This document shows positions 8,986-41,278 of a stretch of DNA of 41,474 bases, in pieces. The DNA is from Nitratidesulfovibrio liaohensis (GTDB lineage Bacteria; Desulfobacterota; Desulfovibrionia; Desulfovibrionales; Desulfovibrionaceae): NCBI RefSeq assembly GCF_011682075.1, contig NZ_VSMK01000331.1, forward strand, positions 1 through 41,474. The letters run 5' to 3'. Numbering within the stretch: position 1 is the stretch's first letter; every line of letters starts with the position of its first letter. The notes below the pieces were generated by a model. It saw only the letters and a program-made list of their open reading frames with translations, ran no database searches and had not been told where the DNA came from. The translations under genes and the position numbers were made by a program.

Positions 8986-9000
8986 CGGAGGAGAGCCACA

Positions 9001-10086
9001 ATGGGTTTCTCGTTCATCCGGCATGATACCAATGTCGATTTCGTGGGCATGCGCCACAAGGCGTATGTGATTTCCATCGCGCTCATCCTCGTGGGGCTGC
9101 TCTCCATCGTCTTCAAGGGCGGGCTGACCTACGGCATCGACTTCGCGGGCGGGGCCATCGTGCAGGTCAAGTTCGACCGGCCCGTGGCCGACGACACCCT
9201 GAAGAAGAGCCTTTCGGGCGCCAGCCTGCCCGGCCTTGCCGTGCAGCGCTTCGGCGAGGGCGAAACCGAGTACCTCATCCGCATGTCGCATACCGACGAG
9301 TCGGCGGAGGTTCTTCGCGCGGCCGTCACCGAGGCGCTGACCGCCAACATCAAGGACGCCACGTTCGTGGTGCAGCGGCTGGAAATGGTTGGCCCCAAGG
9401 TGGGCGCCGACCTTAAGAGCAAGGCGGTGGAGGCGCTGTACTACGCGGTGCTGCTCATCGCCATCTACATCTCCGGTCGGTTCGAGCGCCGCTGGATGGC
9501 GTCCGCCGTCATGGCCGGCACCCTGGCGGGCGGCATGTACCTGCTGGGTCTCATCGGCGTGCCCAAGCTGTGGCTGGTGCCGTTTTCGCTGGTGCTCACC
9601 ATGGTGCTGTGCTGGAAGCTGCGGCTCAACTTCGCCCTTGGGGCCATCGTGGCCCTGGTGCATGACGTGCTGATCACCCTGGGCGTGCTGTCCCTGCTGA
9701 ACAAGGAAGTGGACCTGAACATCGTGGCGGCCATCCTGACCCTGGTGGGCTACTCGCTGAACGACACCATCATCGTCTACGACCGCATCCGCGAAACGCT
9801 GCGCACCCACCGCAAGGAATGGACCTATGCGCAGATCATCAACACCAGCATCAACCAGACGCTCAGCCGCACCATCCTGACGGGCGGCACCACGCTGTTG
9901 GTCATCCTGGCGCTGTTCGTGCTGGGCGGCGGGGTCATCCACGACTTTGCGCTGACCATGCTGGTGGGCGTGTTCGTGGGCATCCTGTCGTCCATTTTCG
10001 TGGCAAGCCCGGTGCTGCTGCACTTCGGCATGCCCGAGGAGGAAAAGGAACCCGCGCCGCGCGTCGGACAGGAAGGGGCCGTGTAG
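9001..10086 (+). CDS. secF: Protein translocase subunit SecF
   Basis: The 361-residue product has the SecF layout: a first transmembrane helix, the [16 protein letters not shown] motif, a short periplasmic domain, and five further helices. The motif [18 protein letters not shown] (the SecF counterpart of the SecD motif) is in place. It forms a complex with SecD for the late, proton-driven step of Sec export. The ribosome-binding site GGAGGAG lies in the 15-base gap after secD. The C-terminal 20 residues are charged and cytoplasmic. An intrinsic terminator follows 30 bases after the stop. Confidence 0.96.
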
Positions 10087-11059: not shown

Positions 11060-12316
11060 ATGCGCGTACGCTTTCACTCCGCGACGGTTGCCGGTGTACG
11101 CGCGTTCGTCGCCACGGCCTTGTTGATTGGTTTGTCCGTTGTGTCCGCCACGGAGGGACGGGCGGCGGTTTCCACTGCCGTTCCGTCCCCCGTTCTGCCA
11201 CCGGCCCTGCTTGCCGCCGCCGATGATGCGCCTTCCGTCACGGATGGCGGGGGCGGCACAGCCCATGCCGGGCACGATGCCCATGCGGGACATGATGTCG
11301 GCGCCATGCCCGCCGACCATGCAGGGCATGCCATGCCGTCCGCTACGGCAAGTACCCCTGGCGGTGACGCCCCCCATCAGGGCCACGGCGCAGCCGATAC
11401 CGGCCAGCCCCCGGCGGAGCACGTGCACCCGGTGCCGCCGCCCACCACGGGCAAGCTGGGCCAGCCCGGCCAGGCTACGGCGACAGACCCGTCCGCACAG
11501 ACCCCCCTTGCGGGGGTGGACGAACGCCTCGGCGAGATCATCCCCGAGGGCATCCTGCTGCGCGACGAGTCGGGCAAGCCCATCGACCCGCGCACCCTGA
11601 TGGACGTGCCGGTGATCATCGCGCCCATCTATTATTCCTGTCCCACCGTGTGCAACATGCTGCAAAGCTCGCTGGCGCGGGTCCTGCCGCAAATGTCGCT
11701 GCAGGCGGGCAAGGAGTACCGCGTGCTGTCCGTGAGTTTTGACGAAACGGACACCCCGCAACTGGCCACCCGCAAGAAGCAGAACTATTTCGCGGCCATG
11801 AATTTTGCCTACCCGGAAGACGGCTGGCGTTTCCTGTCCGGCGACCTTGCGTCCATCAACAGGTTCATGGAGGCCATCGGCTTCCGGTTCACCCGGCAGG
11901 GGCGCGACTTCATCCATCCCGTGGTGCTGGTGGTCACCGCGCCGGGGGGCAAGGTGGTGCGCTACCTGTACGGCCAGAACTTCATGCCCTTCGACCTGAC
12001 CATGGCCGTCACGGAAGCCTCGCACGGCACCATTGGCCTGTCGGTAAAGCGAGTGCTGTCGTACTGCTTCACCTACGACCCGGAAGGGCGGCGCTACGTG
12101 TTCGATTTCATGCGCATAGCCGGGGCCATCATCCTGTTCGGCGCCGCGGTGCTGCTGTTCGTGCTGGTTCGGGGCGGCCCGCGCAGGAAGGAACGCAAGG
12201 GCCCGGAAAGTTCGCCGCCTTCTGACACTCCCCCGTCAGGCACGCCGCCTGATGGAACTCACCCGGACGGCTCGCCCCCGTCAGACCCGCCGAAGCCGGG
12301 GGCTCCCCAGGCCTAG
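11060..12316 (+). CDS. SCO1/SenC-type copper chaperone for cytochrome oxidase, with His-rich and Pro-rich extensions
   Basis: The 418-residue protein begins with a signal or anchor helix. A low-complexity region (about residues 50-155) follows, containing a His-rich stretch HAGHDAHAGHD. Then comes a thioredoxin-like SCO domain with the copper-binding CPTVC motif and a downstream histidine in RDFIHPVV. A C-terminal transmembrane helix (AGAIILFGAAVLLFVLV) and a Pro-rich tail end the protein. SCO proteins deliver copper to the CuA site of oxidase subunit II. Both the length and the two extensions exceed the usual 200-residue family size. ATG at 11060 is chosen because AGG at 11048 is then 9 bases away; ATG at 11054 is possible. 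It opens the oxidase gene group after c-553. Confidence 0.85.
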   Translation: MRVRFHSATVAGVRAFVATALLIGLSVVSATEGRAAVSTAVPSPVLPPALLAAADDAPSVTDGGGGTAHAGHDAHAGHDVGAMPADHAGHAMPSATASTPGGDAPHQGHGAADTGQPPAEHVHPVPPPTTGKLGQPGQATATDPSAQTPLAGVDERLGEIIPEGILLRDESGKPIDPRTLMDVPVIIAPIYYSCPTVCNMLQSSLARVLPQMSLQAGKEYRVLSVSFDETDTPQLATRKKQNYFAAMNFAYPEDGWRFLSGDLASINRFMEAIGFRFTRQGRDFIHPVVLVVTAPGGKVVRYLYGQNFMPFDLTMAVTEASHGTIGLSVKRVLSYCFTYDPEGRRYVFDFMRIAGAIILFGAAVLLFVLVRGGPRRKERKGPESSPPSDTPPSGTPPDGTHPDGSPPSDPPKPGAPQA

Positions 12317-29060: not shown

Positions 29061-29810
29061 CTACAGGGTGAGCACCGAGGCGTCTATGATCTCGCGGCGC
29101 ATCTCCAGAAAGTGCTTGCCCGTCAGGTCGCGAGGGCGGGGCAGGTCCACGGTGTAGGTGCGCTGCACCCGTCCGGGCAGCTTGCCCTCGATGGTCACGA
29201 TCCGGTCGGCCAGAAACAGCGCCTCGTCGGTGTTGTTGGTCACGAAAAGGACGGTGCGCTTGTCGGTCTGCCAGATGCGCTCTGTTTCCTGTTCCATGAA
29301 GATGCGCGTCTGGGCGTCCAACTGGCCGAAGGGTTCATCCAGCAGCATCACCCGTGGCTTGTTGGCGTAGGCGCGGGCAATGCCCACGCGCTGCTTCATG
29401 CCGCCGGAAAGCTGATGCGGGTAGTGCTTTTCAAAGCCGTTCAGCCCCACCAGGTCGATGTAGTGCATGGCGATGTCGCGGGCTTCGTCCCTGGGCAGGC
29501 CGCATAGCTTCGGCCCCATTTCCACGTTGCCGAGCACTGTCTTCCACGGAAACAGCATGTACCCCTGGAACACCAGGCCCCGGTCGGCCCCCGGCCCGGT
29601 CACTGGCTCGCCGTCAAGGATGACGGTGCCGGTGGTGGGCGTTTCCAGTCCGGCGATGATGCGCAGCAGCGTGCTCTTGCCGCTCTGGCCGGGGCCGAGG
29701 ATGACCACGAATTCGTTGGCCTGCACGTCGATGCTCACGTCCTCGAGCACCGGGACTTCCTGACTGCCCTTCTGGATGAAGGTCTTGCTCACGTTGCGGC
29801 ATTCGATCAC
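29061..29810 (-). CDS. ABC importer ATPase 2 (TauB/SsuB-like), H-loop His replaced by Asn
   Basis: The 249-residue ATPase has Walker A GPGQSGKST (residues 39-47), Q-loop FQGYMLFPW, a fully canonical signature LSGGMKQR (134-141) and Walker B RVMLLDEP. In the H-loop, where TauB-type proteins read VTHDxDEA, it reads FVTNNTDEA, so the catalytic His is Asn192. It sits in the cytoplasm under the permeases of a nitrate/sulfonate/taurine-type importer. It is the last gene of the operon tpa-ald-ATPase1-binding protein-permease-permease-ATPase2. The first ATPase has the complementary defect, so the two probably pair as a heterodimer. The substrate is inferred to be taurine or a related C2 compound from the operon partners. 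Confidence 0.88.
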   Translation of the reverse strand: MIECRNVSKTFIQKGSQEVPVLEDVSIDVQANEFVVILGPGQSGKSTLLRIIAGLETPTTGTVILDGEPVTGPGADRGLVFQGYMLFPWKTVLGNVEMGPKLCGLPRDEARDIAMHYIDLVGLNGFEKHYPHQLSGGMKQRVGIARAYANKPRVMLLDEPFGQLDAQTRIFMEQETERIWQTDKRTVLFVTNNTDEALFLADRIVTIEGKLPGRVQRTYTVDLPRPRDLTGKHFLEMRREIIDASVLTL

Positions 29811-29852
29811 GGCGTCGTCCCTTCCTTTGGGGCTGGGGTTCCGGCGGTGGGG

Positions 29853-30731
29853 CTACAGGCCCACGATCTTGCGCTTCCACGGACACAGCTTGCGTTCCAG
29901 CGCGGTGACCAGCAGCGTGGTGCCCCACGCCGCCGCCGCGATGACCGCCATGCCGCCGATGACCATGGCCGGTTGCGACAGGTTCATGCCCTGCACGATG
30001 ATGTACCCCATGCCCGAACGGGCGCTGACCAGTTCCGCCGCCAGCACGCAGGTCCAGGCGATGCTGAGCGATATCTGCAGCCCAGCGAAGATGGCCGGGA
30101 ACGAGGCGGGAAAACAGACGTGCAATATCTCGTCGCGCCGCTTGCCGCCCAGCATGCGCACCACATCGTACAGTTCCGGCTCCACCAGGCGCACGCCGTT
30201 GTAGGCGTTGAGCAGGCACGGCACGAAGGTGCCCAGCACGATGATGAACACCTTGGACGTTTCGCCGATGCCGAACCACAGGATGGATATGGATATCCAC
30301 GAGATGGGCGGCATGGGCTTCAGCAGGTCGAACAGGGGCTTGACGATGGCGTTGACGTAGCGGTTCAGCGCCATGAACAGCCCCAGCGGAACGGCGATGG
30401 CGGCGGCGATGGAAAAGCCTATCACCACGCGCTGGGTGCTGGCCCACACGTGGCCCCAAAGGGTCAGTTCCGCCAGTTCCTCGCGGGTGAGCACCGCCAG
30501 CTGTTCCAGCACTTCATGCGGGCGGGCCAGGACGCTGCTGCCCGCGCCCAGCACGTTGGAGCGGGCCAGCCAGTCCCACAACCAGAAGAACGCTACGATG
30601 GACACGGTATGAAGGAACCAGCGGTTGGTGAGGATGCGCCCCAGGCTGATGGGGCCGCGGTCCACCACCTGCCCCACGGTCTCGTTGGCGATGGAAGAGC
30701 TTGCGGCGCTGCACGTGGCTTCCTGCGACAT
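29853..30731 (-). CDS. ABC importer permease 2 (nitrate/sulfonate/taurine type)
   Basis: The 292-residue inner-membrane protein has about six helices and the binding-protein-dependent permease signature, visible as VRMLGGKRRDEILHVCFPASFPAIFAGLQISL with the coupling helix that contacts an ATPase. It has a longer cytoplasmic N-terminus (about 35 residues) than permease 1. It starts 3 bases after the permease 1 stop, which indicates translational coupling, and its own ATPase gene follows 42 bases later. With permease 1 it would form a heterodimeric channel for the imported C2 substrate. Confidence 0.88.
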   Translation of the reverse strand: MSQEATCSAASSSIANETVGQVVDRGPISLGRILTNRWFLHTVSIVAFFWLWDWLARSNVLGAGSSVLARPHEVLEQLAVLTREELAELTLWGHVWASTQRVVIGFSIAAAIAVPLGLFMALNRYVNAIVKPLFDLLKPMPPISWISISILWFGIGETSKVFIIVLGTFVPCLLNAYNGVRLVEPELYDVVRMLGGKRRDEILHVCFPASFPAIFAGLQISLSIAWTCVLAAELVSARSGMGYIIVQGMNLSQPAMVIGGMAVIAAAAWGTTLLVTALERKLCPWKRKIVGL

Positions 30732-30734
30732 GGT

Positions 30735-31532
30735 CTACCTCCTGATTCCGGCCAGCAGCCGCTTTTCCACCCTGTCGATGATCACGCCGATGAAGGCGCC
30801 GGTCAGCCCCACCATGAACATGCCCAGCACCACCATTTCGGGCATGGCCAGGCGACGGCCCATGGTGATCATGAACCCCAGGCCCGCGTCGGCGGCCAGC
30901 AGTTCCGCCGCGACAAGGTTGGTCCAGCAGCAGGCCAGCGCGATCTGCAGGGCGCCGAAGACCATGGGCAGGGCGGAAGGGATGCACAGCTGCCTGAAAA
31001 TCTGCCAGTCGCTGGCCCCGTAGGTGCGGGCCATCTGGATGAGCGTGGGATTGGTCATCTTGACCCCCACGTAGGCGTTGATGACGCACGGAACCAGCCC
31101 CCCCAGCCAGATGATGAATATCTTGCCGGGCAGCCCGATGCCGAACCAGAAGATGGTCAGGGGTATCCACGCCACGGGGGGAATGGGCCGGATGATCTCG
31201 AAGATGGGCCGCGCAAGGCCCTCGGCCACGTTGAACCAGCCCATGGCCAGCCCCAGCGGCAGCCCCACGGCCAGGGCCAGGAAATAGCCGCCGAAGGCCT
31301 CCTGGATGCTGACCCAGGCGTGCTGGTGCAGCAGGGCGCCGTCGGGGTCCATGTTGGTGAACTTGTCGAACAGCAGTTGCGTCACGGTGGTGGGCGCGGC
31401 CAGCATGGTGTCCGGCACGACCCCGGTGCGCACGACGATCTCCCATGCGATGAAGAACGTGGCCACGCTGACGATGGGCAGTATTTTCAGCGCCAGCGGC
31501 GTTCTTACGACAACCTCGCGATATGCGGTCAT
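30735..31532 (-). CDS. ABC importer permease 1 (nitrate/sulfonate/taurine type)
   Basis: The 265-residue product is a six-helix permease with the typical segments FEIIRPIPPVAWIPLTIFWFG and ARTYGASDWQIFRQLCIPSALPMVFGALQIAL (the coupling EAA-like loop). Its sequence is clearly related to permease 2 but not recent: identity is confined to the motifs. It follows the binding-protein gene by 71 bases on the same strand and is coupled to permease 2. It is expected to form half of the membrane channel for the importer. Confidence 0.9.
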   Translation of the reverse strand: MTAYREVVVRTPLALKILPIVSVATFFIAWEIVVRTGVVPDTMLAAPTTVTQLLFDKFTNMDPDGALLHQHAWVSIQEAFGGYFLALAVGLPLGLAMGWFNVAEGLARPIFEIIRPIPPVAWIPLTIFWFGIGLPGKIFIIWLGGLVPCVINAYVGVKMTNPTLIQMARTYGASDWQIFRQLCIPSALPMVFGALQIALACCWTNLVAAELLAADAGLGFMITMGRRLAMPEMVVLGMFMVGLTGAFIGVIIDRVEKRLLAGIRR

Positions 31533-31603
31533 GCATGCCTCCGGTGTCGGCGGTGGAGGGGAGCGGCGCCCGCCCCGCGCGGGCGGGCGCCGTGCGGAAA
31601 CGG

Positions 31604-32668
31604 TTACTTCACGGTGGGCACGAGCTTCAGGAACTTGTCGGTGATGTAGTAGCCGGTCAGCAGCTTCTCGCCTTCAGCAGGCTTCAGCTTGCCGAGTTCG
31701 GTAAAGAACTTCACCAGGTCCTTCTGCCATGCCTGCACCTGGCTTTCACCGGTGGAGGCATCGAACATCTTCAGCTGTTCCTGCAAGGTGAACACCGGGT
31801 GCAGTTCCAGGTCCATCTTTGCTTCTTCTTCGGTCATGTTCAGCCCGGCCCACTTCAGGAAACGGGTGTATTCGGGGGCCAGCTTCACGCCTTCGGCACG
31901 CAGCGCGTCGATGCCCTGGAAGTACACCTTGAGGAAACGCGCCACTTCTTCGGGGTTCTTGTCACAGTATTCCTTGTCGCCGATGAGCACGATGGGCACG
32001 AAGCCGCCCGCCGTCTTGACGTCGGAGGCAACCTTCCAGCCCTTCTTGAGGCCGTTGTACATTTGCGGGGCCCACAGCACCACGGCGTCGCCGATGCCCT
32101 TTTCGAACGCGGCCACGCACTGGGCGGGGTCCATGTTCTTGATGGTCACGTCCTTGTCGGTCAGGCCAAGCGACTTCAGCCACAGGCTCATGGCGTAGTG
32201 GCCGGACGAGATGGTGGTGGCGAGGATGGTCTTGCCCTTGACGCTTTCAGGCGAGCCGAACACGTCGGGGTGCTTGGGGTTGAAGCCCTTGGTCTTCAGG
32301 ATGGGGCTGTCCGGGCGCACCAGCACCGCATTGGTCACCGACTCATCGTTGGCGATGGCGATGAGGTAGGCGTTCTGGCGCAGCGCGCCGAACATCATGG
32401 GCACGCCGCCCGTGCCGCCCACGACCCACTGTTTGGCGGGCAGGGCCTCGATCTGGGCCATGCCCGAATCAAACATGTGCAGCTTGAAGTCGAAACCGGC
32501 GGCCTTGTCCCAGCCTTGCTGCTTGGCGTACCAGGGCACGAAGGTTTCGTGCTCGGCCTGCCAGGTGGTGTCCAGGGGCTTCACCTCGGCGGCAAGGGCC
32601 GTCACCGCCATGGCAAGAAGAGCCATCACGGCAGCCGCAAATCCAACCCAACGTTTCATCTGGAGCAT
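31604..32668 (-). CDS. ABC importer substrate-binding protein (taurine/sulfonate-type)
   Basis: This 354-residue precursor has a Sec signal (basic MLQMKRW, hydrophobic stretch, cut at ALA-AE near residue 26) and a periplasmic binding domain of the NMT1/TauA type. The start of the mature part reads TTWQAEHETFVPWYAKQQGWDK and is followed by AKQWVVGGTGGVPMM. It is the only binding protein in the operon, so it should serve both permease/ATPase pairs. Its genomic partners (tpa, ald, xsc, phnX) suggest it binds taurine or a related aminosulfonate/aminophosphonate, but the ligand is not read from the sequence. ATG at 32668 has a strong AAGGAGG 7 bases upstream, which overrides the longer frame that starts at 32779. 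Confidence 0.88.
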   Translation of the reverse strand: MLQMKRWVGFAAAVMALLAMAVTALAAEVKPLDTTWQAEHETFVPWYAKQQGWDKAAGFDFKLHMFDSGMAQIEALPAKQWVVGGTGGVPMMFGALRQNAYLIAIANDESVTNAVLVRPDSPILKTKGFNPKHPDVFGSPESVKGKTILATTISSGHYAMSLWLKSLGLTDKDVTIKNMDPAQCVAAFEKGIGDAVVLWAPQMYNGLKKGWKVASDVKTAGGFVPIVLIGDKEYCDKNPEEVARFLKVYFQGIDALRAEGVKLAPEYTRFLKWAGLNMTEEEAKMDLELHPVFTLQEQLKMFDASTGESQVQAWQKDLVKFFTELGKLKPAEGEKLLTGYYITDKFLKLVPTVK

Positions 32669-32744
32669 GGTCAGACCTCCTTGAAGCAGGTTACGGTAGA
32701 CTGTCTGGGCGTATGTTCTTGCCATTGCGTGTCCCCTTGGGGGG

Positions 32745-33500
32745 TTACCACCATCTGATGAGGTCCGTGACGTGTTCACGGATGCGCACGAATTCCGGGT
32801 CCATGAAGTCGCGCGGGCGGGGCAGGTCCACCTTCACCTCCGCCTTGATGCGGGTGGGCTTGTTGGACAGCACCAGGATGCGCTCGGAAACGTAGACCGC
32901 TTCCTCGATGTTGTGGGTGATGAACAGCACCGTGCTTTTCAGCTTGCGCCACAGGTTGACCAGTTCGTCCTCCAGGTAGAACCGCAGCTTCACGTCCAGT
33001 TGGCCGTACGGCTCGTCCATCAGCAGCAGGTCCGGGTCAACGGCGAACGCGCGCGAAACCGCGATGCGCTGCTGCATGCTGGCGGATATCTGGTTGGGAT
33101 ATAGGTTCGCGCACTGGGTCAGCCCCACCATGTCCAGGATATGGTCGAGCCGCTCGTCGATCTCCTTCCGGGGGCGTCCCTTGACCTCCATGCCGTAGGC
33201 CACGTTTTCGCGCACGGTGCGCCAGGGCAGGCAGGTGGGTTCCTGGAAGACGTAGGAGATGTTGTGGCGCTTGGGGTTGGCGGGGGTGCCGTCGATGAGG
33301 ATCTGTCCGCTCGATGCGGGCAGCAGGCAGGACAGGGTGTTGAGGAAGGTGGTCTTGCCGCAGCCCGTGGGGCCGACGATGGCCACGAACTCGCCCTCGG
33401 CCACCGAGAAGGAGATGTCGTTGAGCACCAGCAGTTCTCCGAACCGCTTGGTGAGATTGCATACTTCGATCTTGTTCCGTGGTCTGGCGGCGTTTTGCAC
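32745..33500 (-). CDS. ABC importer ATPase 1 (TauB/SsuB-like), signature motif altered to ISAS
   Basis: The 251-residue ATPase has Walker A GPTGCGKTT (residues 43-51), Q-loop FQEPTCLPW, Walker B DLLLMDEP and an intact H-loop histidine (ITHNIEEA, His196). Its signature, normally LSGGM, reads ISASM (residues 138-142) within NQISASMQQR. GTG at 33500 is preceded by GGAG at 7 bases. It lies after ald, separated by a 185-base gap that includes a GC-rich hairpin. Together with ATPase 2, which keeps LSGGM but lacks the H-loop histidine, one consensus site (Walker A and His of ATPase 1 with LSGGM of ATPase 2) and one degenerate site would form. Confidence 0.88.
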   Translation of the reverse strand: MQNAARPRNKIEVCNLTKRFGELLVLNDISFSVAEGEFVAIVGPTGCGKTTFLNTLSCLLPASSGQILIDGTPANPKRHNISYVFQEPTCLPWRTVRENVAYGMEVKGRPRKEIDERLDHILDMVGLTQCANLYPNQISASMQQRIAVSRAFAVDPDLLLMDEPYGQLDVKLRFYLEDELVNLWRKLKSTVLFITHNIEEAVYVSERILVLSNKPTRIKAEVKVDLPRPRDFMDPEFVRIREHVTDLIRWW

Positions 33501-33685: not shown

Positions 33686-34795
33686 CTACAACACCTCTTC
33701 AACCGGCGCGTGCGGCAGCCCGAAGGCTTCGGCCACGGCCGGGTAGGTTATCTTGCCGTCCACCACGTTCAGCCCCTTGCGGATGTCCGCGTGCTGGCGG
33801 CAGGCTTCCTTCCACCCCATGTCCGCGATGGTCAGGGCGTAGGGAAGGGTTGCGTTGGTCAGCGCGGCGGTGGAGGTCATGGCCACCGCGCCGGGTATGT
33901 TGGCCACGCAGTAGTGGCTCACGCCGTCCACCACGTATACCGGGTCGGCATGGGTGGTCGGGCGGGAGGTTTCGAAGCAGCCGCCCTGGTCGATGGCCAC
34001 ATCCACCAGGATGGAGCCCCTGCGCATCTGTTTCAGGTCTTCGCGGGTGACCAGGTGGGGCGCCTTGGCGCCGGGCACCAGCACCGCGCCCACCACCACG
34101 TCGGCTTGGGGCAGCAGCTTGCGGATGGCGTAGGGGCCGGACATCATGGTGATACAGTTGGGGGGCATCACGTCGCTGAGGTAGCGCAGCCGGTCCAGGT
34201 TCTTGTCCAGCAGGTACACCGTTGCGCCAAGGCCGCAGGCCATCTTGGCCGCGTTGATGCCCACGGTGCCCCCGCCGATGACCACCACCACGGCGGGTTC
34301 CACGCCGGGCACGCCGCCCATCAGCTTGCCCATGCCCCCCGTGGGTATTTCCAGGTATTTTGCGGCCTGCTGAATGGCCATGCGGCCCGCCACCTCGGAC
34401 ATGGGGGTAAGCAGCGGCAACGAGCCGTCCGCCTTCTGGATGGTTTCGTAGGCGATGTTCACGCTGCGCGCGGCCACCAGCGCGTGGGTCTGTTCCTCGT
34501 CGGCGGCCAGGTGCAGGTAGGTGAACAGTATCTGATTCTTGCGCAGCATGCCGTATTCCGAAGGCTGCGGTTCCTTGACGTGCATGACCATGCCGCATTC
34601 GGCAAAGATGGTCCGCGCATCGGCCATGACCGCGCCCGCGGCCACGTATTCGTCATCGCCAAAGCCCGCGCCTTCGCCCGCACCGGCCTGCACCAGCACC
34701 GAGTGCCCGTGCGACCGCATGGCCACCACACCCGCGGGCGTCATGGCCACGCGGTTCTCCAGTACCTTGATCTCTTTCAGAATGCCGACCTGCAT
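33686..34795 (-). CDS. ald: Alanine dehydrogenase
   Basis: The 369-residue enzyme matches alanine dehydrogenase throughout: N-terminal MQVGILKEIKVLENRVAMTP, VKEPQPSEY, TYLHLAAD with the catalytic histidine, a Rossmann motif VVIGGGTVGINAA, and DVAIDQGGC. It oxidises alanine to pyruvate, NH3 and NADH in the cytoplasm. Next to tpa it regenerates the pyruvate used as amino acceptor and makes taurine deamination net ammonia-releasing; a tpa-ald pair is known from Bilophila. ATG at 34795 follows GGAG at 7 bases; a longer start at 34828 would overlap tpa and is not favoured. Confidence 0.95.
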   Translation of the reverse strand: MQVGILKEIKVLENRVAMTPAGVVAMRSHGHSVLVQAGAGEGAGFGDDEYVAAGAVMADARTIFAECGMVMHVKEPQPSEYGMLRKNQILFTYLHLAADEEQTHALVAARSVNIAYETIQKADGSLPLLTPMSEVAGRMAIQQAAKYLEIPTGGMGKLMGGVPGVEPAVVVVIGGGTVGINAAKMACGLGATVYLLDKNLDRLRYLSDVMPPNCITMMSGPYAIRKLLPQADVVVGAVLVPGAKAPHLVTREDLKQMRRGSILVDVAIDQGGCFETSRPTTHADPVYVVDGVSHYCVANIPGAVAMTSTAALTNATLPYALTIADMGWKEACRQHADIRKGLNVVDGKITYPAVAEAFGLPHAPVEEVL

Positions 34796-34824
34796 GGGGT
34801 GCTCCTGTGAGGTGATTGCGGGTA

Positions 34825-36204
34825 TCAACCGAGCACCTTGGTCATGGCCGCGCGCAGGGCGCGGAGAATGACGTCGATGTCATCCCGGGTGACCACGTAG
34901 GCCGGGGCGATATTGATGATGTTGTTGTGGCCGGGCAGGCTGCGGTTGGTGCGGCCCACCAGCACGCCGTTGGCCGCCATTTCGCCCACCACCTGGATGA
35001 CCTTGCCTTCGGGCAGGGGTTTCCTGCTCGCCTTGTCTTCCACCAGTTCCACACCACACAACAGACCCTTGCCTCGCACGTCCCCCACATAAGGCAGCTT
35101 GCCCAGTTCCTTCAGGCCCGCCAGCAGGTAGTCGCCCATGGCCCTGACGTTATCGAGCAGGTTTTCCTCCTCGATGATGGCCATGTTCTCCAGGGCGGCG
35201 CTGCACCCGGCGGCGCACCCGCCGTAGGTGCTGATGTCACGGAAGTAGGCCAGTTTGTCGCCCGGGTCGTGCAGGAAGGATGTGAAGAGGTCTTCGGTGG
35301 TGACGGTGACCGAGATGGGCATGTAGGCGCTGGCCACACCCTTTGCCATGGTCACGATGTCGGGCGTGACGCCGTAGTGCTGGTAGCCGAGCATGGTGCC
35401 GGTGCGGCCCATGCCGCAGACCACTTCGTCCATGATCAGCAGCACGCCGTGGTTGCGACAGACCGCCGCAAGTTCGGTGTAGTACTCGGCCACCGGGGGA
35501 ATGACCCCGCCGCCCGCCGTGATGGGTTCGACGATGAGGCCGCCGACTGTTTCCGGACCTTCTTCGCGAATGATGCGGTCGACCGCCTTGACACAGTCAA
35601 GGTCGCAGCCGGGATAGGTTTTGCCGAAGGCGCAGCGGTAACAGCAGGCATGGGGGAATTCGACGAAGCCGGGGACGAACGGGCCGAACCATTCCTTGCG
35701 TTCCGCCTGACCGGTGGAACTGAGGGCGCCCAGGGTGGTGCCATGGTAGTCGCGGGCGCGGAACAGGATCTTCTTCTTGGTGGTGTTGCCCGAAATGTGG
35801 GCCAGCGCCCGGATCATCTTGTAGGCCTTTTCGTTGGCCTCGGACCCGCTGTTGGAAAGGTATACCCGCGACAGGCCGGGCATGTGAGAGACCAGCTTAC
35901 GGGCGAATTCGATGTAGGGAATGTTGCCGGCAGTGGCCGCGTAGTAGGGCATGGCCCTGAGTTGTTCGTACACCGCCTTGGCGATGCGTTCGCGGCCGTA
36001 GCCCACGTTCACGCACCACACGCCGCCAGAGGTGGCGTCCAGGTATTCCTTGCCGTTGATGTCCCGCAGCTTCAGTCCTTCGCCTTCGACCACGATCATG
36101 GGGCCTTTTCCGGCGAGGGCCTGGTGCTGGACGAGGTGATGCCACACGTGGGCCATGTCGGCCGCTGCGTATGCCGCTGGGTCATGCTTCAGACTGGGGC
36201 TCAT
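34825..36204 (-). CDS. tpa: Taurine:pyruvate aminotransferase (class III, PLP-dependent)
   Basis: The 459-residue enzyme is a class III aminotransferase with SNSGSEANE, DYHGTT, LLIMDEVVCGMGRTG (Asp259) and the PLP lysine Lys288 in TMAKGVASAYMP. The N-terminal VWHHLVQHQAL and GGVWCVNVGYGRERIAKAVYEQL and the CCYRCAFGKTYPGC segment are those of the taurine:pyruvate aminotransferase group rather than omega-amino acid transaminases in general. It converts taurine plus pyruvate to sulfoacetaldehyde plus alanine; 2-aminoethylphosphonate could be an alternative substrate. It is the first gene of the minus-strand operon, divergent from xsc, with AAGGAG 7 bases before the ATG. Confidence 0.9.
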   Translation of the reverse strand: MSPSLKHDPAAYAAADMAHVWHHLVQHQALAGKGPMIVVEGEGLKLRDINGKEYLDATSGGVWCVNVGYGRERIAKAVYEQLRAMPYYAATAGNIPYIEFARKLVSHMPGLSRVYLSNSGSEANEKAYKMIRALAHISGNTTKKKILFRARDYHGTTLGALSSTGQAERKEWFGPFVPGFVEFPHACCYRCAFGKTYPGCDLDCVKAVDRIIREEGPETVGGLIVEPITAGGGVIPPVAEYYTELAAVCRNHGVLLIMDEVVCGMGRTGTMLGYQHYGVTPDIVTMAKGVASAYMPISVTVTTEDLFTSFLHDPGDKLAYFRDISTYGGCAAGCSAALENMAIIEEENLLDNVRAMGDYLLAGLKELGKLPYVGDVRGKGLLCGVELVEDKASRKPLPEGKVIQVVGEMAANGVLVGRTNRSLPGHNNIINIAPAYVVTRDDIDVILRALRAAMTKVLG

Positions 36205-36514
36205 GTCCTGCTCCTTGAGGTTGTCAGGAAAAATGATGGCACCTGTGATGCGGACCGCAGGAAGTGTACCTCCGGGCGGGAATAGTGCGGATATGATCCG
36301 TCAATGGGCAGTGTTCCGGGCGGTCCTCCAGGAAATTTTGCGAAACTTCGAAGATTGCGGTCTTCTTTTTCGCTTTGTCTAGACAAAGAAATGAGGCTTT
36401 GTTATTTTTCTGTCAAGCGTTTTTTACGACGGGCGGGAACTCGGCGTAAAACTACTTCAACACCGTGCATTGTCAGGCAAAGACGGCACGGCATGCCCCC
36501 GAGGAGGCTTTGAA
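36205..36514. promoter_or_regulatory. Divergent promoter/operator region between tpa and xsc
   Basis: This 310-base region separates two divergent transcription units. Its centre (36340-36430) is much more AT-rich than the genome average. It contains a perfect 16-bp palindrome at 36373-36388 and a smaller CTTCGAAG palindrome near 36347. No consensus sigma-70 pair is certain, and no convincing sigma-54 pair was found. GGAGG at 36503 is the ribosome-binding site for xsc at 36515. Confidence 0.6.
36373..36388. promoter_or_regulatory. Probable operator of the HutC-type GntR regulator
   Basis: CTTTGTCTAGACAAAG is a perfect 16-bp palindrome with core GTCTAGAC, which fits the HutC-subfamily pattern GTnTAnAC. 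The regulator gene at 39567 in the same island is of this subfamily. The site lies midway between tpa and xsc and could control both directions. Binding is inferred. Confidence 0.7.
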
Positions 36515-38257
36515 ATGCCCAAGATGACCCCCAGTGAAGCAATGGCGGAAGTGCTGGTGCAGGAAGGCGTCACCCATGTCAGCGGCATTCTCGGCTCCGC
36601 TTTCATGGATCTGCTGGACCTGTTTCCGGCGGCGGGCATCGATTTCATTTCGGTGCGTCACGAACAGACGGCAGGCCACATGGAGGACGCCTTTACCAGA
36701 ATGACTGGCAGGGCGGGCGTTTGCATCGGCCAGAACGGCCCCGGCATCACCAACTACGCCACGGCGGTGGCCACTGCCAACATGGCTCACACGCCCATGG
36801 TGCTCATTTCGCCCAGCGCGGGCAGCATTTCTGTGGGTTGGGACGGCTTTCAGGAATGTGACACCTGGAACATGTTCAAGCCGATCACGAAAGCATCACT
36901 TCGCGTGCCGCACCCCAAGCGCGCCGCCGACATCCTGCGCACCGCCTTCCGCATCGCCTACGCCGAACGCGGCCCGGTGCTGGTGGATATCCCGCGCGAC
37001 TTCTTCTACGGCGAACTGGACGAGGACATTCTGACCCCGTCGCAGTATCGCGTGGCCCCTGGCGGCATCGGCAATCCGGAGCAGTTCCGCGAGGCGGTGG
37101 AAGTACTGAAGGCCGCCAAGCGTCCGGTCATCGTCTCCGGTCGCGGGGTGGTGGATTCCGACGCGCTGGAAACCGTGAAGGCCCTGGCGGAACACCTGAA
37201 TGCCCCCGTGGCCTGCACCTACCTGCACAACGACGCCTTCCCCTGCGACCACCCGCTGTGGACCGGCCCCATCGGGTACATGGGTTCCAAGGCGGCCATG
37301 CGCATCCTGCAGCAGGCCGACGTCATCCTGGCCATCGGCACCCGGCTGTCCTACTTCGGCACGTTGCCGCAGTACGACATCAACTACTTCCCGAAGACCG
37401 CCAAGATCGTCCAGATCGACATCAATCCCCGCCACATCGCCAAGACCCATCCCGTGGCCGTGGGCCTGTGCGCCGACGCCAAGGACGCCGCCGTGGAACT
37501 GCTGGCCCGCGTGCGAGAAGCCATGCCGAATCCCAAGCGCGACGATGCCGTGTACGGCATGGTCAAGGCGGAACTGGAGGACTGGTACAAGGAAATCGCC
37601 GCCATCGCCGACGAACCGGTGATGGAAGGCCGCATGCATCCGCGCAAGGCGCTGGACGTGGTGGGCCGCTTCGTCACCGAGCACAACGCCATCGCCACCA
37701 CCGACATCGGCAACACCTCGTCCACGGCCAACAGCTACCTGCGCTTCCGCAACGCCAAGCGTTCGGTGGCCACGCTGACCTTCGGCAACACCGGTTTCGC
37801 CTATCAGGCGGGCCTTGGCGCGCAGCTGGCCTGCCCCGAGGACACGGTGGTGGCCATCGTGGGTGACGGCGCGTGGGGCATGAGCCTGTTCGAGGTGCCC
37901 ACCGCCGTGCAGTACAACCTGCCGGTCATCGCCACCGTGTACAACAACGGGGCGTGGTGCGCGGAAAAGAAGAACCAGGTGGACTTCTACAACAACCGCT
38001 TCGTTGGCGCGGACATCTGGTCCAACTCCTACGCGGCCATCGCGCAAGCCATGGGCGCCACGGGCTACAAGGTGAACACCCAGGCCGACCTGGCCGACGC
38101 GCTGGACGCTGCCCGCAAGAGCCGCAAGCCTGCCGTCATCGAGATCATGACCGACGGCACCCGCCTGGCTCCGCCCTTCCGGCGCGATGCCCTGGCCCTG
38201 CCCACCCGGCACCTGCCCAAGTACGAACACCTGGACAAGCGGCACTTCCCCAAGTAG
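36515..38257 (+). CDS. xsc: Sulfoacetaldehyde acetyltransferase (Xsc), somewhat divergent
   Basis: The 580-residue thiamine diphosphate enzyme resembles Xsc over its length. Shared parts include [15 protein letters not shown], the HNDAFP and [12 protein letters not shown] region, [14 protein letters not shown], and [12 protein letters not shown]...[11 protein letters not shown] (around residues 450-485, the ThDP/Mg site). The FRRDAL segment is near the end. The ThDP-activating Glu is in [13 protein letters not shown], where classical Xsc reads HExNAGxxxDGF. It should cleave sulfoacetaldehyde with phosphate to sulfite and acetyl phosphate. ATG at 36515 has GGAGG 7 bases upstream. It is divergent from tpa and followed by phnX. 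Other ThDP lyases are less likely but not excluded for this divergent member. Confidence 0.85.
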
Positions 38258-38414
38258 CCGCCCCAGCAGGGTAATACGGCATGGGCGGCGCACCGTACGG
38301 TGCGCAGCAATGAACCCGGACAGGCCATGGCCCAAGCCCGGAACGGCGCGCCGCCAGTGCCATTCGAGATAAACCCGAAGGGCGGGTACTCCCCCTTCCT
38401 CGGTTACAGGGCGT

Positions 38415-38444
38415 GTACCGGCATCCTTGCAGGGGTGCCGGTAC
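38415..38444 (+). promoter_or_regulatory. Hairpin between xsc and phnX
   Basis: GTACCGGCA (38415-38423) and TGCCGGTAC (38436-38444) form a 9-bp stem. A direct repeat GTTCCTCTGG follows at 38446 and 38464. The 253-base gap otherwise has nothing recognised. The hairpin could attenuate read-through from xsc to phnX; there is no T-tract. Confidence 0.45.
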
Positions 38445-38510
38445 CGTTCCTCTGGCCGGTATTGTTCCTCTGGAAGGTTGCCAGCCTTTCAAAACTGTGG
38501 GCAGGTGAAC

Positions 38511-39353
38511 ATGAAGCCGTTTCTTCGTACCCGCGTGTACCACGGCCCGGTGCGGGCCGTGGTGCTGGACTGGGCTGGCACCGCCGTGGACCACGGCTGC
38601 CTGGGGCCGGCGGCGGTCTTCGTGCAGGCCTTTGCCCTGCATGGAGTAGAGGTGACCGTGTCCGAGGCTCGCGAACCCATGGGCACCGAAAAGCGCGAGC
38701 ACGTGCGCCGCATGCTGGGCATGGATGGCGTGGCGGCCCGCTGGCGCGCCGCGCACGGGCATGTGCCCGGCGAGGTGGCGGTGGACGCCGTGTACCGCGA
38801 CGTGGAGCCGCTGATGTTGCAAACCATCGCCGCCCATGCCGTGCCGGTTCCCGGCCTTGGGGAATTCGTGGACCGGGTGCGGGGCCGAGGCATGGGCCTT
38901 GGCTCGTGTACCGGCTACACCGGCCCCATGATGGAAGTGCTGGTGCCCGAGGCGGCCCGCCAGGGCTACAGCCCCGACGTGGTGGTGCATGCGTCCGAGG
39001 TGCCCGCCGGGCGTCCGTATCCGTGGATGTGCTATCTGAACGCCATGCGGCTGGGTGTGCATCCCATGGAATCCATGGTCAAGATCGGCGACACGGTGGC
39101 CGACATGCACGAGGGGCGCAACGCGGGCATGTGGACCGTGGGCGTGGTGCGCACCGGCAATGACATGGGCCTTTCCGAGGCGGATGCCGCGCGCATGCCC
39201 CCTGATCAGCTGGCCGCGCGCATGGCCGTGGTCACCGCTCGGCTGCGCGAGGCCGGGGCGCACTATGTGGTGGATTCCATCGCCGACTGTTTTTCCGTCA
39301 TCGAAGCCATAGAGGCGCGCCTTGCCCGAGGCGAGGCGCCGTATCCCACCTGA
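38511..39353 (+). CDS. phnX: Phosphonoacetaldehyde hydrolase (phosphonatase)
   Basis: The 280-residue HAD-family protein carries the PhnX catalytic set: Asp20 nucleophile in VVLDWAGT, Cys30 in DHGC, the Schiff-base lysine Lys61 and His64 in PMGTEKREHV, CTGYTG, and PAGRPYPWMC. The Mg-binding GDTVADMHEGRNAGMWTVG follows. It cleaves phosphonoacetaldehyde to phosphate and acetaldehyde, the second step of 2-aminoethylphosphonate breakdown. It lies 253 bases after xsc, with AGGTG upstream of the ATG, and precedes the GntR regulator. Its presence next to taurine genes suggests the shared aminotransferase or importer also handles 2-aminoethylphosphonate, or that sulfoacetaldehyde is an alternative substrate. 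No phnW homologue is seen here. Confidence 0.9.
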   Translation: MKPFLRTRVYHGPVRAVVLDWAGTAVDHGCLGPAAVFVQAFALHGVEVTVSEAREPMGTEKREHVRRMLGMDGVAARWRAAHGHVPGEVAVDAVYRDVEPLMLQTIAAHAVPVPGLGEFVDRVRGRGMGLGSCTGYTGPMMEVLVPEAARQGYSPDVVVHASEVPAGRPYPWMCYLNAMRLGVHPMESMVKIGDTVADMHEGRNAGMWTVGVVRTGNDMGLSEADAARMPPDQLAARMAVVTARLREAGAHYVVDSIADCFSVIEAIEARLARGEAPYPT

Positions 39354-39566
39354 GGCCGCCGCGCTCGGACGTGCCATGCCGGGGGATGCCGGATGAAAAC
39401 GGACAAAATACGCCCTGGGGCTGGCCTGGCGAACGCTTCCGTGGTACGCGGGCTGTGTCCGCTGCTGACGGGTGAGGCTGTTTGCTCCCCTGCGGACTGC
39501 AACAAGCGAAATGAGGGGGAATACGCGGGGTACGGTGTCTGCACCGTGCCCGGCCACGGAAAGGAC

Positions 39567-40361
39567 ATGGCTAAATCGAAGTATCTCGTCATCTACGAAT
39601 GGCTTTCGGAGCAGATACGGAACAAGGTGTACCAGCCGGGGGACAAGATTCCCAACGAGAACGACCTGGCCGCCATGTTCGGTGTGCATCGCATGACCGT
39701 GCGCCAGGCCATCGACAAACTGGTCAACGACCACATGGTGGTGCGCAAGCGCAGCAAGGGCACGTTCCTGCTTTCGGAAAAGAACCCCGTGCTCACCCGT
39801 TCGCTGGAAAGCATCACCACGTACTACGACGACATCGTCAACGCCGGGCTGGAGCCGCATTACAAGACCATTGCGGCGGGCATAGAATTCGCCGATGCGG
39901 AGGTGGCCGCCCACCTGAACCTTGCCGTGAGTCAGCCGGTGATCTTCCTGTACCGGCTGATGCTGGCCAGCGGCGTGCCGCTGGTGCTTGAACGCTCCAT
40001 CCTGCCCACGGACATGGTTCCGGACTTTCTGGAAAAGAAGCTGGATACCGCGCTCTACAAGGTGCTGCACGAGGATTACGGCATACGCCTTTTGCATTCA
40101 CGGCAGGAACTGGGGGCGGTGATGCCCACGGAGAATGAGCGCAAGTACCTGAAGATCGGCGACAACTGCCCGTGCATCTGGGTGGAGAGCGTAGTCTACA
40201 CCGATACGGGGCGGGCCGTGGAATTCGGCCGCGCCCTGCACCGGGGCGACAAGTACCGCTTCCGCTGCGCCATTGGCGCGTACGTGTACGACAAGGATGG
40301 CACCGCCGGGCAGGCGCCGCTTGTTGGCACCCTGGTGGACCCTTCCGGTGCTGGCGGGTAG
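39567..40361 (+). CDS. GntR family transcriptional regulator, HutC subfamily
   Basis: The 264-residue protein has an N-terminal winged-helix GntR domain (LSEQIRNKVYQPGDKIPNE, MTVRQAIDKLV, RKRSKGTF). A C-terminal UTRA-type ligand domain (about residues 85-250) follows, with FLYRLMLASGVPLVLERSILP and FGRALHRGDKYRF. This is the HutC/PhnF subfamily. Such regulators bind small catabolic ligands and repress the nearby operon. It is the likely regulator of the divergent tpa/xsc region, which contains a matching palindrome. ATG at 39567 is preceded by GGAAAGGA; an upstream in-frame start at 39393 would add 58 non-conserved residues. Confidence 0.88.
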   Translation: MAKSKYLVIYEWLSEQIRNKVYQPGDKIPNENDLAAMFGVHRMTVRQAIDKLVNDHMVVRKRSKGTFLLSEKNPVLTRSLESITTYYDDIVNAGLEPHYKTIAAGIEFADAEVAAHLNLAVSQPVIFLYRLMLASGVPLVLERSILPTDMVPDFLEKKLDTALYKVLHEDYGIRLLHSRQELGAVMPTENERKYLKIGDNCPCIWVESVVYTDTGRAVEFGRALHRGDKYRFRCAIGAYVYDKDGTAGQAPLVGTLVDPSGAGG

Positions 40362-40442
40362 GGCCGCATCAGCAGGCGGCAAGGTCCGCCTGGTCGTGCG
40401 GACGAGAGACCGTTCACGACCGCACAGCGGACAGACAAACAC

Positions 40443-40474
40443 AAGGCCGGACTCCCTGAGGAGCCCGGCCTTTT
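40443..40474. terminator. Bidirectional terminator between regulator and queuosine transporter genes
   Basis: AAGGCCGGACTCC (40443-40455) pairs with GGAGCCCGGCCTT (40460-40472) with one A-C mismatch, a 4-base loop and TTTT at 40471-40474. It lies between converging genes and can serve both. Confidence 0.85.
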
Positions 40475-40573
40475 CACATTGGAACGCGGGGCGGCGCATT
40501 GCGTGCCATGGACGCTCGCCATGCCGTGGCAGCACTGGCGGCTGGCGGGCAGGCAGTGCCGGTAGCCCGGTTT

Positions 40574-41278
40574 TCATCCAGCCGCAGCGGCTGCGCGGGC
40601 GTCCGCCGGGCGTGCGCGCTGCAGGCGGCGGGCCAGGTAGATGAACGGGGTGTCCAGCAGGGCCACCACGGCCTTGAACAGGTAGGTGGTCAGCATGATC
40701 TCCAGCACCACCTCGAACGGGTACACCCCGGTGAAGGCGGCCAGGCAGAACACCGAGGAATCGAGCACCTGGCTGACCAGGGTGCTGGCATTGTTGCGCA
40801 GCCACAGGTGGCGGCCTCCGGTGCGCTGCATCCAGAAGTGGTAGGCCCACACGTCGTGGTATTGCGAGACCAGGTAGGCCAGCAGGCTGGCCCCGGCCAG
40901 GCGCGGCAGCAGGCCGAACAGGGCTTCCAGGTGCGGCTGGGCGAAGTCCGAAGGGGCCGGGGCATACAACAGCGAGGCCTGCATGTAGGCCGTGCCCAGC
41001 AGCAGGGTGATGAAGCCGAGCAGCACGCCCTTGCGCGCCTCTGCCTTGCCGTGAAATTCGCCCAGCATGTCGGTGGCCAGGAACACCCCGGCGTACACGA
41101 TGTTGCCGAGGGTGGTGGTCATGCCGAACAGGGTCACGGTTTTCAGCACCTGGATGTTGCACACCATCAGGTTGAGCACGATGAGGGCATGCAGCCCGGC
41201 GGCGCCGAACAGGCGGTGCATGAGTACGGTGATGCCCATGTCGAACAGGGCGAAGCACAACCAGAGCAGTTCGTTCAT
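40574..41278 (-). CDS. Queuosine precursor transporter (YhhQ/DUF165)
   Basis: This 234-residue membrane protein has about six helices. The YhhQ features visible are VYAGVFLATDMLGEFHGKAEARKG, with the conserved Asp and Glu, and LDSSVFCLAAFTGVYPFE near the C-terminal third. YhhQ-type proteins take up queuine precursors such as preQ0 or preQ1 for tRNA modification. ATG at 41278 has GGAG at a 6-base spacing. The C-terminus ends in an Ala/Arg-rich tail. The 196 bases upstream to the window end contain no recognised preQ1 riboswitch. It has no functional link with the taurine genes. Confidence 0.88.
   Translation of the reverse strand: MNELLWLCFALFDMGITVLMHRLFGAAGLHALIVLNLMVCNIQVLKTVTLFGMTTTLGNIVYAGVFLATDMLGEFHGKAEARKGVLLGFITLLLGTAYMQASLLYAPAPSDFAQPHLEALFGLLPRLAGASLLAYLVSQYHDVWAYHFWMQRTGGRHLWLRNNASTLVSQVLDSSVFCLAAFTGVYPFEVVLEIMLTTYLFKAVVALLDTPFIYLARRLQRARPADARAAAAAG

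Follow-up and report, generated by a model that had tools for sequence, protein, structure and literature searches.

A palindrome in the tpa-xsc gap of Nitratidesulfovibrio as the predicted operator of a HutC-type GntR/UTRA regulator

We analysed a DNA stretch of 41,474 nucleotides from Nitratidesulfovibrio liaohensis (contig NZ_VSMK01000331.1, called the window below) in which a 16-bp palindrome lies between the divergent genes tpa and xsc. Judging from comparative sequence analysis, this palindrome is very probably the operator of the GntR/UTRA protein encoded at 39567-40361, and presumably a repressor site, because it is present beside tpa in every examined relative in which that gene and the repressor co-occur and is missing beside tpa in the examined relatives without the repressor. 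The single site probably acts on both directions, and there is a reasonable likelihood that the effector is a metabolite of the taurine pathway.

The gene island and the palindrome in its divergent gap

The minus strand of the island carries taurine/sulfonate-type ABC transporter genes (29061-33500), ald and tpa. A 310-bp gap follows, beyond which xsc, phnX and the GntR/UTRA regulator gene (gntR) lie on the plus strand. The tpa gene (34825-36204, minus strand) encodes a class III aminotransferase, named taurine:pyruvate aminotransferase by context; its best NCBIfam match was a general aminotransferase subfamily, and no Tpa-specific model was among its best 25 matches. The product of ald (33686-34828, minus strand) matched the alanine dehydrogenase model TIGR00518 above cut-off. 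The transporter genes, all on the minus strand and none reaching a taurine-specific cut-off, encode two ATPases (32745-33500 and 29061-29810), a binding protein (31604-32779) and two permeases (30735-31532 and 29853-30731, the latter named from its similarity to the former). On the plus strand, xsc (sulfoacetaldehyde acetyltransferase, 36515-38257) and phnX (phosphonoacetaldehyde hydrolase, 38511-39353) matched TIGR03457 and TIGR01422, respectively, above cut-off. The phnX coordinates are those of an ATG start; the listed open reading frame starts upstream, at TTG 38427. A phosphonoacetaldehyde hydrolase gene was observed in the taurine arm in the genus group and also in G237, a genome of another genus.

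The third gene of the xsc-phnX-gntR run, gntR (39567-40361, plus strand), encodes a presumed repressor of 264 aa. The earlier note had described it as a HutC-type GntR protein, and indeed both the N-terminal GntR winged helix-turn-helix (PF00392, 70.9 bits) and the C-terminal UTRA domain (PF07702, 118.2 bits) that mark the HutC subfamily scored above cut-off. The model of the histidine-utilisation repressor HutC itself (TIGR02018) reached 114.9 bits against a cut-off of 220. Relatives with 89-96% identity were found in four named records: two Desulfovibrio MAGs, Desulfovibrio sp. A2 and N. oxamicus NCIMB 9442, where the gene is partial. The intergenic gaps of 253 bp before phnX and 213 bp before gntR could accommodate a promoter for gntR alone; a promoter scan of 38200-40600 detected no promoter-like match in either of them. 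The same interval held five terminator-like matches, versus 1.8 (sd 1.7) in shuffled sequences, and those on the plus strand fell within the end of phnX.

The gap between the starts of tpa (36204, minus strand) and xsc (36515, plus strand) houses the predicted operator palindrome CTTTGTCTAGACAAAG at 36373-36388, exactly where a perfect 16-bp palindrome had been reported. As had been noted, it contains a core of the GTnTAnAC type, namely, the HutC-type core GTCTAGAC at 36377-36384. Its placement in an AT-rich middle of the gap was borne out as well, since GC content was 37% over the 100 bp at 36331-36430 compared to 51% for the whole gap, and the centre of the palindrome lies about 21 bp off the middle. 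CTTTGTCTAGACAAAG was the sole match in the window at up to three mismatches (0.01 in shuffles), and the assembly of the strain, rated 86.84% complete, contains one exact copy and none with one or two mismatches.

The window contains four perfect palindromes of at least 16 bp compared to 1.64 expected from shuffles, and palindrome length was dropped as evidence. When the gap was shuffled (5,000 times per test), a GTnTAnAC core arose in 2.3% of the shuffles and a 16-bp palindrome in 0.4%, and none of the 5,000 gave a 16-bp palindrome containing the core. By itself, the palindrome is barely beyond chance, and the case rests on comparison.

Distribution of the site and of the regulator gene

The genus sample comprised eight genomes (that of the window, G000, and seven others), which are related and do not count as independent observations; seven of them retain the cluster. 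In each of these seven (G000, G001, G002, G004, G005, G006 and G007), TGTCTAGACA occurs exactly once genome-wide, always in the tpa-xsc gap; two of the assemblies are incomplete (G000, as above, and G002, 75%), and further copies are possible there. In the eighth genome, N. oxamicus (G003), whose assembly is without the cluster, TGTCTAGACA had no copy genome-wide, tpa gave no match at E ≤ 1e-140, and just the rear half of gntR is present.

Several observations concern the assemblies of the genus. In N. oxamicus NCIMB 9442 (G003:C443, about 11344-11366), the rear of tauA (from residue 122) abuts the rear of gntR (from residue 131), and tauB1, ald, tpa, xsc and phnX are absent between them; this junction is either a strain deletion or an assembly error. 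At the xsc gene of this strain (G003:C604, 4327-6069, minus strand), GTCTAGAC is absent, and the neighbouring genes encode a sigma-54-type activator and a TRAP binding protein. A gene for a regulator of the sigma-54 type also adjoins xsc in another family member, G252, and it seems likely that xsc is controlled in a second way in the family. In G004 and G006, the contig with gntR breaks inside xsc, and the tpa side with the site lies on another contig; the breaks within xsc in both assemblies may reflect a second, nearly identical copy of xsc. The xsc gene of G002, a MAG, aligns at 8192-9803 in two parts (residues 1-495 and 549-580), its reading frame being either broken or misassembled.

Across the family, a search at E ≤ 1e-40 gave a gntR orthologue in 11 of 288 genomes, belonging to 3 of 44 genera. 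We compared this distribution with 30 tpa loci, the best matches from the 68 of 288 genomes that matched at E ≤ 1e-140, taking the two sets of 288 genomes to be the same. GTCTAGAC was present within 700 bp upstream of tpa at all nine loci in gntR-bearing genomes and at none of the 21 others (Fisher's P of 7e-8, which ignores kinship). Even the loose core GTnTAnAC was absent upstream of these 21 loci, two of which had just 515-552 bp of upstream sequence. G237 stands outside this table, its contig beginning inside tpa.

For xsc, 30 loci were likewise tabulated, with 42 of 297 genomes of the order matching at E ≤ 1e-150. The strict core was present upstream of xsc at five of six loci in gntR-bearing genomes, G003 being the exception, versus 1 of 24 others (G252), and the loose core was present in one further genome without gntR (G026). 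Three of the 24 belong to another family, and for two of these three, G068 and G098, it is not known whether they were among the genomes searched for gntR. Relatedness inflates the co-occurrence figures for both genes. An association of the site with xsc as such was rejected: of the 24 xsc loci from outside the gntR-bearing genomes, 23 have no strict core and 22 no loose one, and the xsc gene of G003 is also without the site. By these comparisons, the regulator and the site track tpa rather than xsc as such or phnX, and the pattern of site and regulator holds over several genera. The earlier note had made its reading depend on conservation of the palindrome upstream of orthologous xsc and tpa genes; such conservation was found where the genome has the regulator, apart from the xsc gene of G003, and was wanting at orthologous loci of regulator-less genomes, apart from the xsc gene of G252.

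G252 has no gntR match at E ≤ 1e-40 and yet carries six copies of the core, one of them 264 bp upstream of xsc. Two TGTCTAGACA copies in this genome stand in identical sequence context, probably as parts of a repeated element. For these reasons the G252 site was put aside, and it was still tallied as a miss.

Outside the genus, G237 retains both the xsc-phnX-gntR order and the site. A second TGTCTAGACA copy in this genome, roughly 100 bp away from where another UTRA gene, 27% identical, matches (G237:C49, site at 1501, match at 1401-760 on the minus strand), is possibly a self-regulatory site of this paralogue. In two genomes of a third genus, G156 and G168, gntR faces tpa, and each gap contains two sites; tpa is followed by ald, the two sets of transporter genes and a gene for a SarD-like dehydrogenase, the last name being tentative, since the SarD model scored 476-485 bits, below its cut-off of 700. 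A phnX match at E ≤ 1e-20 was not found anywhere in either genome. Both genome-wide copies of the core in G156 lie in the gntR-tpa gap, and the genome has a single UTRA match; G168 has a third core copy elsewhere.

The most distant case is G726, a Desulfobulbaceae MAG of the class Desulfobulbia. Its gntR product, encoded near a contig end, is 62% identical to that of the window, and on a separate contig tpa (75%) faces an xsc gene of a different type, whose product is 39% identical to Xsc of the window and well above the Xsc cut-offs. Two of the three genome-wide TGTCTAGACA copies fall within this tpa-xsc gap. No island protein matched around the third copy, and no GTnTAnAC core was found near gntR. 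This genome comes close to a blind test, since the core was searched before its tpa gene had been seen; the gntR contig being a separate one, misbinning is possible.

We rejected the regulator of G045, 34% identical, as an orthologue, since it is encoded among peptide-type transport genes (labels read from translations); GTCTATAC lies about 100 bp upstream of its gene. A search of the phylum gave seven more distant regulators with 35-37% identity, of which four (G354, G455, G509 and G616) were compared for their residues only; the G509 regulator also has GTCTATAC close upstream.

Promoter geometry around the site

Fourteen sites were aligned. The core is better conserved than the outer bases, the exact 16-bp form being present at three of them (G000, G002 and the proximal site of G156). 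Across eight aligned tpa-xsc gaps, those of the seven same-genus genomes and G237, the longest invariant run is TTTGTCTAGACA, followed by TGTCAAG, presumed to be the tpa -35 element on the opposite strand, and GAGGAGG, read as the ribosome-binding site of xsc.

A promoter for xsc is predicted at 36380-36408 (plus strand), with the -35 hexamer TAGACA (36380-36385) inside the palindrome, a 17-nt spacer and an extended -10 element consisting of TG (36400-36401) and TATTTT (36403-36408). It was the single sigma-70-like match in 36180-36560 (0.2 in shuffles), and it would place the xsc start near 36415. TAGACA followed after 17 nt by TATTTT, or by TATCTT as in G237, was found at 10 of the 14 aligned sites, directed toward xsc or, in G156 and G168, toward gntR, and all 10 have TG one base ahead of the -10 hexamer. 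The exceptions are the distal sites of G156 and G168 and both sites of G726. In the other direction, a tpa promoter may be placed at 36388-36416 (minus strand), with the -35 hexamer TTGACA (36416-36411), a 17-nt spacer and a weak -10 hexamer, CATTTC (36393-36388), which is a poor match, as is CATCGC in most congeners; the predicted start, near 36381, would lie inside the palindrome. At 11 of 14 sites, 26 bp separate GTCTAGAC from a TTGACA hexamer facing tpa; at one more the distance is 25 bp.

From this geometry we infer that a dimer on the site would cover the -35 element of xsc and the -10 and start region of tpa. Without inducer, the bound protein, presumably acting by repression rather than activation, would silence both the xsc-phnX-gntR arm and the tpa-ald-transporter arm. 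Transcription of gntR is taken to proceed from the xsc promoter, and putative self-repression of gntR is likely. Once taurine, sulfoacetaldehyde or, less likely, another metabolite of the taurine pathway binds the UTRA domain, the dimer would leave, and both arms would be switched on. The earlier proposal of a single operator governing both directions agrees with the promoter-like -35 element of xsc inside the palindrome and with the near-fixed distance of TTGACA toward tpa; as a refinement, G156, G168 and G726 have two sites rather than one.

Alternatively, the palindrome could serve one direction only, either xsc through its -35 element or tpa at its start, the other operon being controlled elsewhere. 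We consider this unlikely, although it is the strongest of the competing readings. It would fit the weak -10 element of tpa and the failure of the promoter scan of 36180-36560 to detect a tpa promoter. It would also fit G726, in which one site has TTGACA toward tpa and the other, on the xsc side, has TAGACA-17-TATACT toward xsc, so that the promoter roles look split between the two; the second site of G168 likewise has TTGACA facing tpa. Against it, there is a single core site per gap in the seven same-genus genomes and G237, with both promoter geometries meeting on it, and HutC divergons are, in the parts of the subfamily survey consulted (PMC4494728), usually regulated in both directions by a single mid-gap site.

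Regulator, effector and known systems

As far as the contigs permit a view, every regulator-bearing cluster has tpa and ald, and the Xsc type, the SarD-like enzyme, the transporters and phnX vary. The constancy of tpa and ald, together with the lack of a phnX match in G156 and G168, points to taurine or sulfoacetaldehyde as the effector and away from phosphonates. It is nonetheless conceivable that operator and regulator are real and that a phosphonate (2-aminoethylphosphonate or phosphonoacetaldehyde) is sensed, as by PhnR or PhnF, in which case the island would combine sulfonate and phosphonate functions in one cassette, and Tpa would double as the phosphonate transaminase. Consistent with this, phnX adjoins gntR in the window, G001, G002, G004-G007 and G237, and the PhnF and PhnR models match the regulator at 97.3 and 90.0 bits. 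These scores are, however, below the respective cut-offs of 156.8 and 296.75; in G156 and G168, the sites persist together with gntR, tpa, ald and the two transporter sets although phnX gave no match, and the phnX match of G726 is on a contig other than that of tpa. We therefore regard phosphonate sensing as improbable. For the preferred taurine-pathway effector, a sulfonate in the UTRA pocket would not be far-fetched by analogy, since the part of the NagR study consulted mentions an earlier NagR structure with bound sulfate (PMC4333415).

Another GntR/UTRA protein, or an unrelated dimer, might bind the site and account for its conservation. A second UTRA match exists in the genome of the window (G000:C185), GntR regulators have sites of the GTnTAnAC type in common, and GTCTAGAC itself is printed alongside other GntR proteins in the portions of the literature consulted. 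However, the one UTRA match of G156 is the orthologue, with both sites beside it; G003 retains the second UTRA protein and lacks the site; and no GTnTAnAC core was found in stretches of 5 kb (G007) and 4 kb (G000) around the second UTRA gene. Such a protein is thus a distinctly improbable owner of the site.

The assignment to the GntR/UTRA protein of the island also agrees with the form of the operator. GTCTAGAC has the GT-4nt-AC arrangement of HutC-subfamily operators (GTMTAKAC), the pairing with the protein being drawn from co-occurrence, and a GTMTAKAC-type core was also present in the orthologous gaps found by the looser GTnTAnAC scan. According to the part of the NagR study consulted, Arg38 and Arg48 of NagR read G-5 and G-4 (PMC4333415). 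In an alignment that leaves out the truncated G003 gene, the Arg48 position is Arg in 11 of 11 orthologues, that of the window included, and the Arg38 position is Asn in eight and Ser in three (G004, G168 and G726). The bases at -5 and +5 are T and A, respectively, throughout the 14 sites; base -5 lay outside the search pattern for 10 of them and is T by construction for the other 4 (G004, G006 and G726). In the HutC survey, as far as consulted, Arg at position 28 prefers G/C, and Asn weakly prefers A/T without statistical significance (PMC4494728); the mapping of this position to NagR Arg38 was made in this analysis. The match of residue and base would be consistent support for a fit between operator and regulator and is no proof, since Ser also co-occurs with T. 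We regard a chance origin of the palindrome, or its being a promoter by-product without a regulator, as very improbable: such palindromes are expected more than once per window and TAGACA alone could be kept as a -35 element, but in the eight aligned gaps the left half, TTTGTC, varies no more than the -35 hexamer, the palindrome of G156 is a perfect one of 26 bp, and presence of the site tracks gntR into other genera and another class.

The HutC-subfamily consensus NyGTMTAKACNy and single-site divergons are already well described, and the survey table consulted contains only one deltaproteobacterial HutC regulator (PMC4494728). The present system resembles the HutC divergons of that source in its UTRA-type regulator, the 4 nt between GT and AC, the palindrome near mid-gap and the occurrence of single or double sites. 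It differs in its taurine pathway, which we did not find assigned to the HutC subfamily there, in the regulator gene, which in the window group is third in the xsc arm and does not adjoin the site, and in an operator half that fits as a -35 element. The best-scoring solved relative by sequence is NagR (YvoA; 2e-30). With NagR and its dre-sites in Bacillus subtilis (PMC4333415, in part), the regulator shares the domain architecture and the Arg48 equivalent, whereas the Arg38 equivalent is Asn or Ser here and, in step, G at -5 is replaced by T; moreover, a sulfonate pathway takes the place of N-acetylglucosamine.

Taurine genes elsewhere are under the MocR-type TauR, according to the parts of PMC5320631 consulted. 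Like the regulator described here, TauR controls taurine-utilisation genes; unlike it, TauR has an aminotransferase-like domain, is a reported activator and recognizes a motif of the direct-repeat type (PMC5320631 and PMC4494728, both in part). The aminotransferase-like C-terminal domain of the MocR subfamily is not present in the product of gntR, whose C-terminal domain is UTRA and whose site is a palindrome. In Bilophila wadsworthia, a tpa-ald-sarD cluster is reported as taurine-inducible (PMC8667426, as far as consulted), and a similar cassette, with tpa, ald and a gene of the SarD-like type, is present in G156 and G168; the gntR orthologue was confined to 3 of the 44 genera in the family sample, which may or may not have included Bilophila. 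Within the literature searched, in the parts consulted (including PMC4641369, PMC8667426 and PMC10507020, and with a 2013 survey of Desulfovibrionales GntR regulons outside it), we found neither a UTRA regulator for taurine nor a named regulator of any anaerobic tpa/xsc cluster. A taurine regulon of this type thus appears to be new within that literature.

We lean slightly toward regarding this system as the first example of UTRA-type sensing of taurine or sulfoacetaldehyde. Such a module, its operator fused into the -35 element of its partner promoter, would move together with tpa across two classes of sulfate reducers and be kept while the downstream step (the Xsc type, with a second Xsc about 39% identical, or a SarD-like reductase), the transporters and phnX change. 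Taurine respiration by Desulfovibrionaceae produces hydrogen sulfide in the gut, according to the part of PMC10507020 consulted. With one protein, an exact site and few candidate effectors, control of the first taurine step becomes directly testable, and if the effector is taurine, the GntR/UTRA protein could be used as a taurine biosensor.
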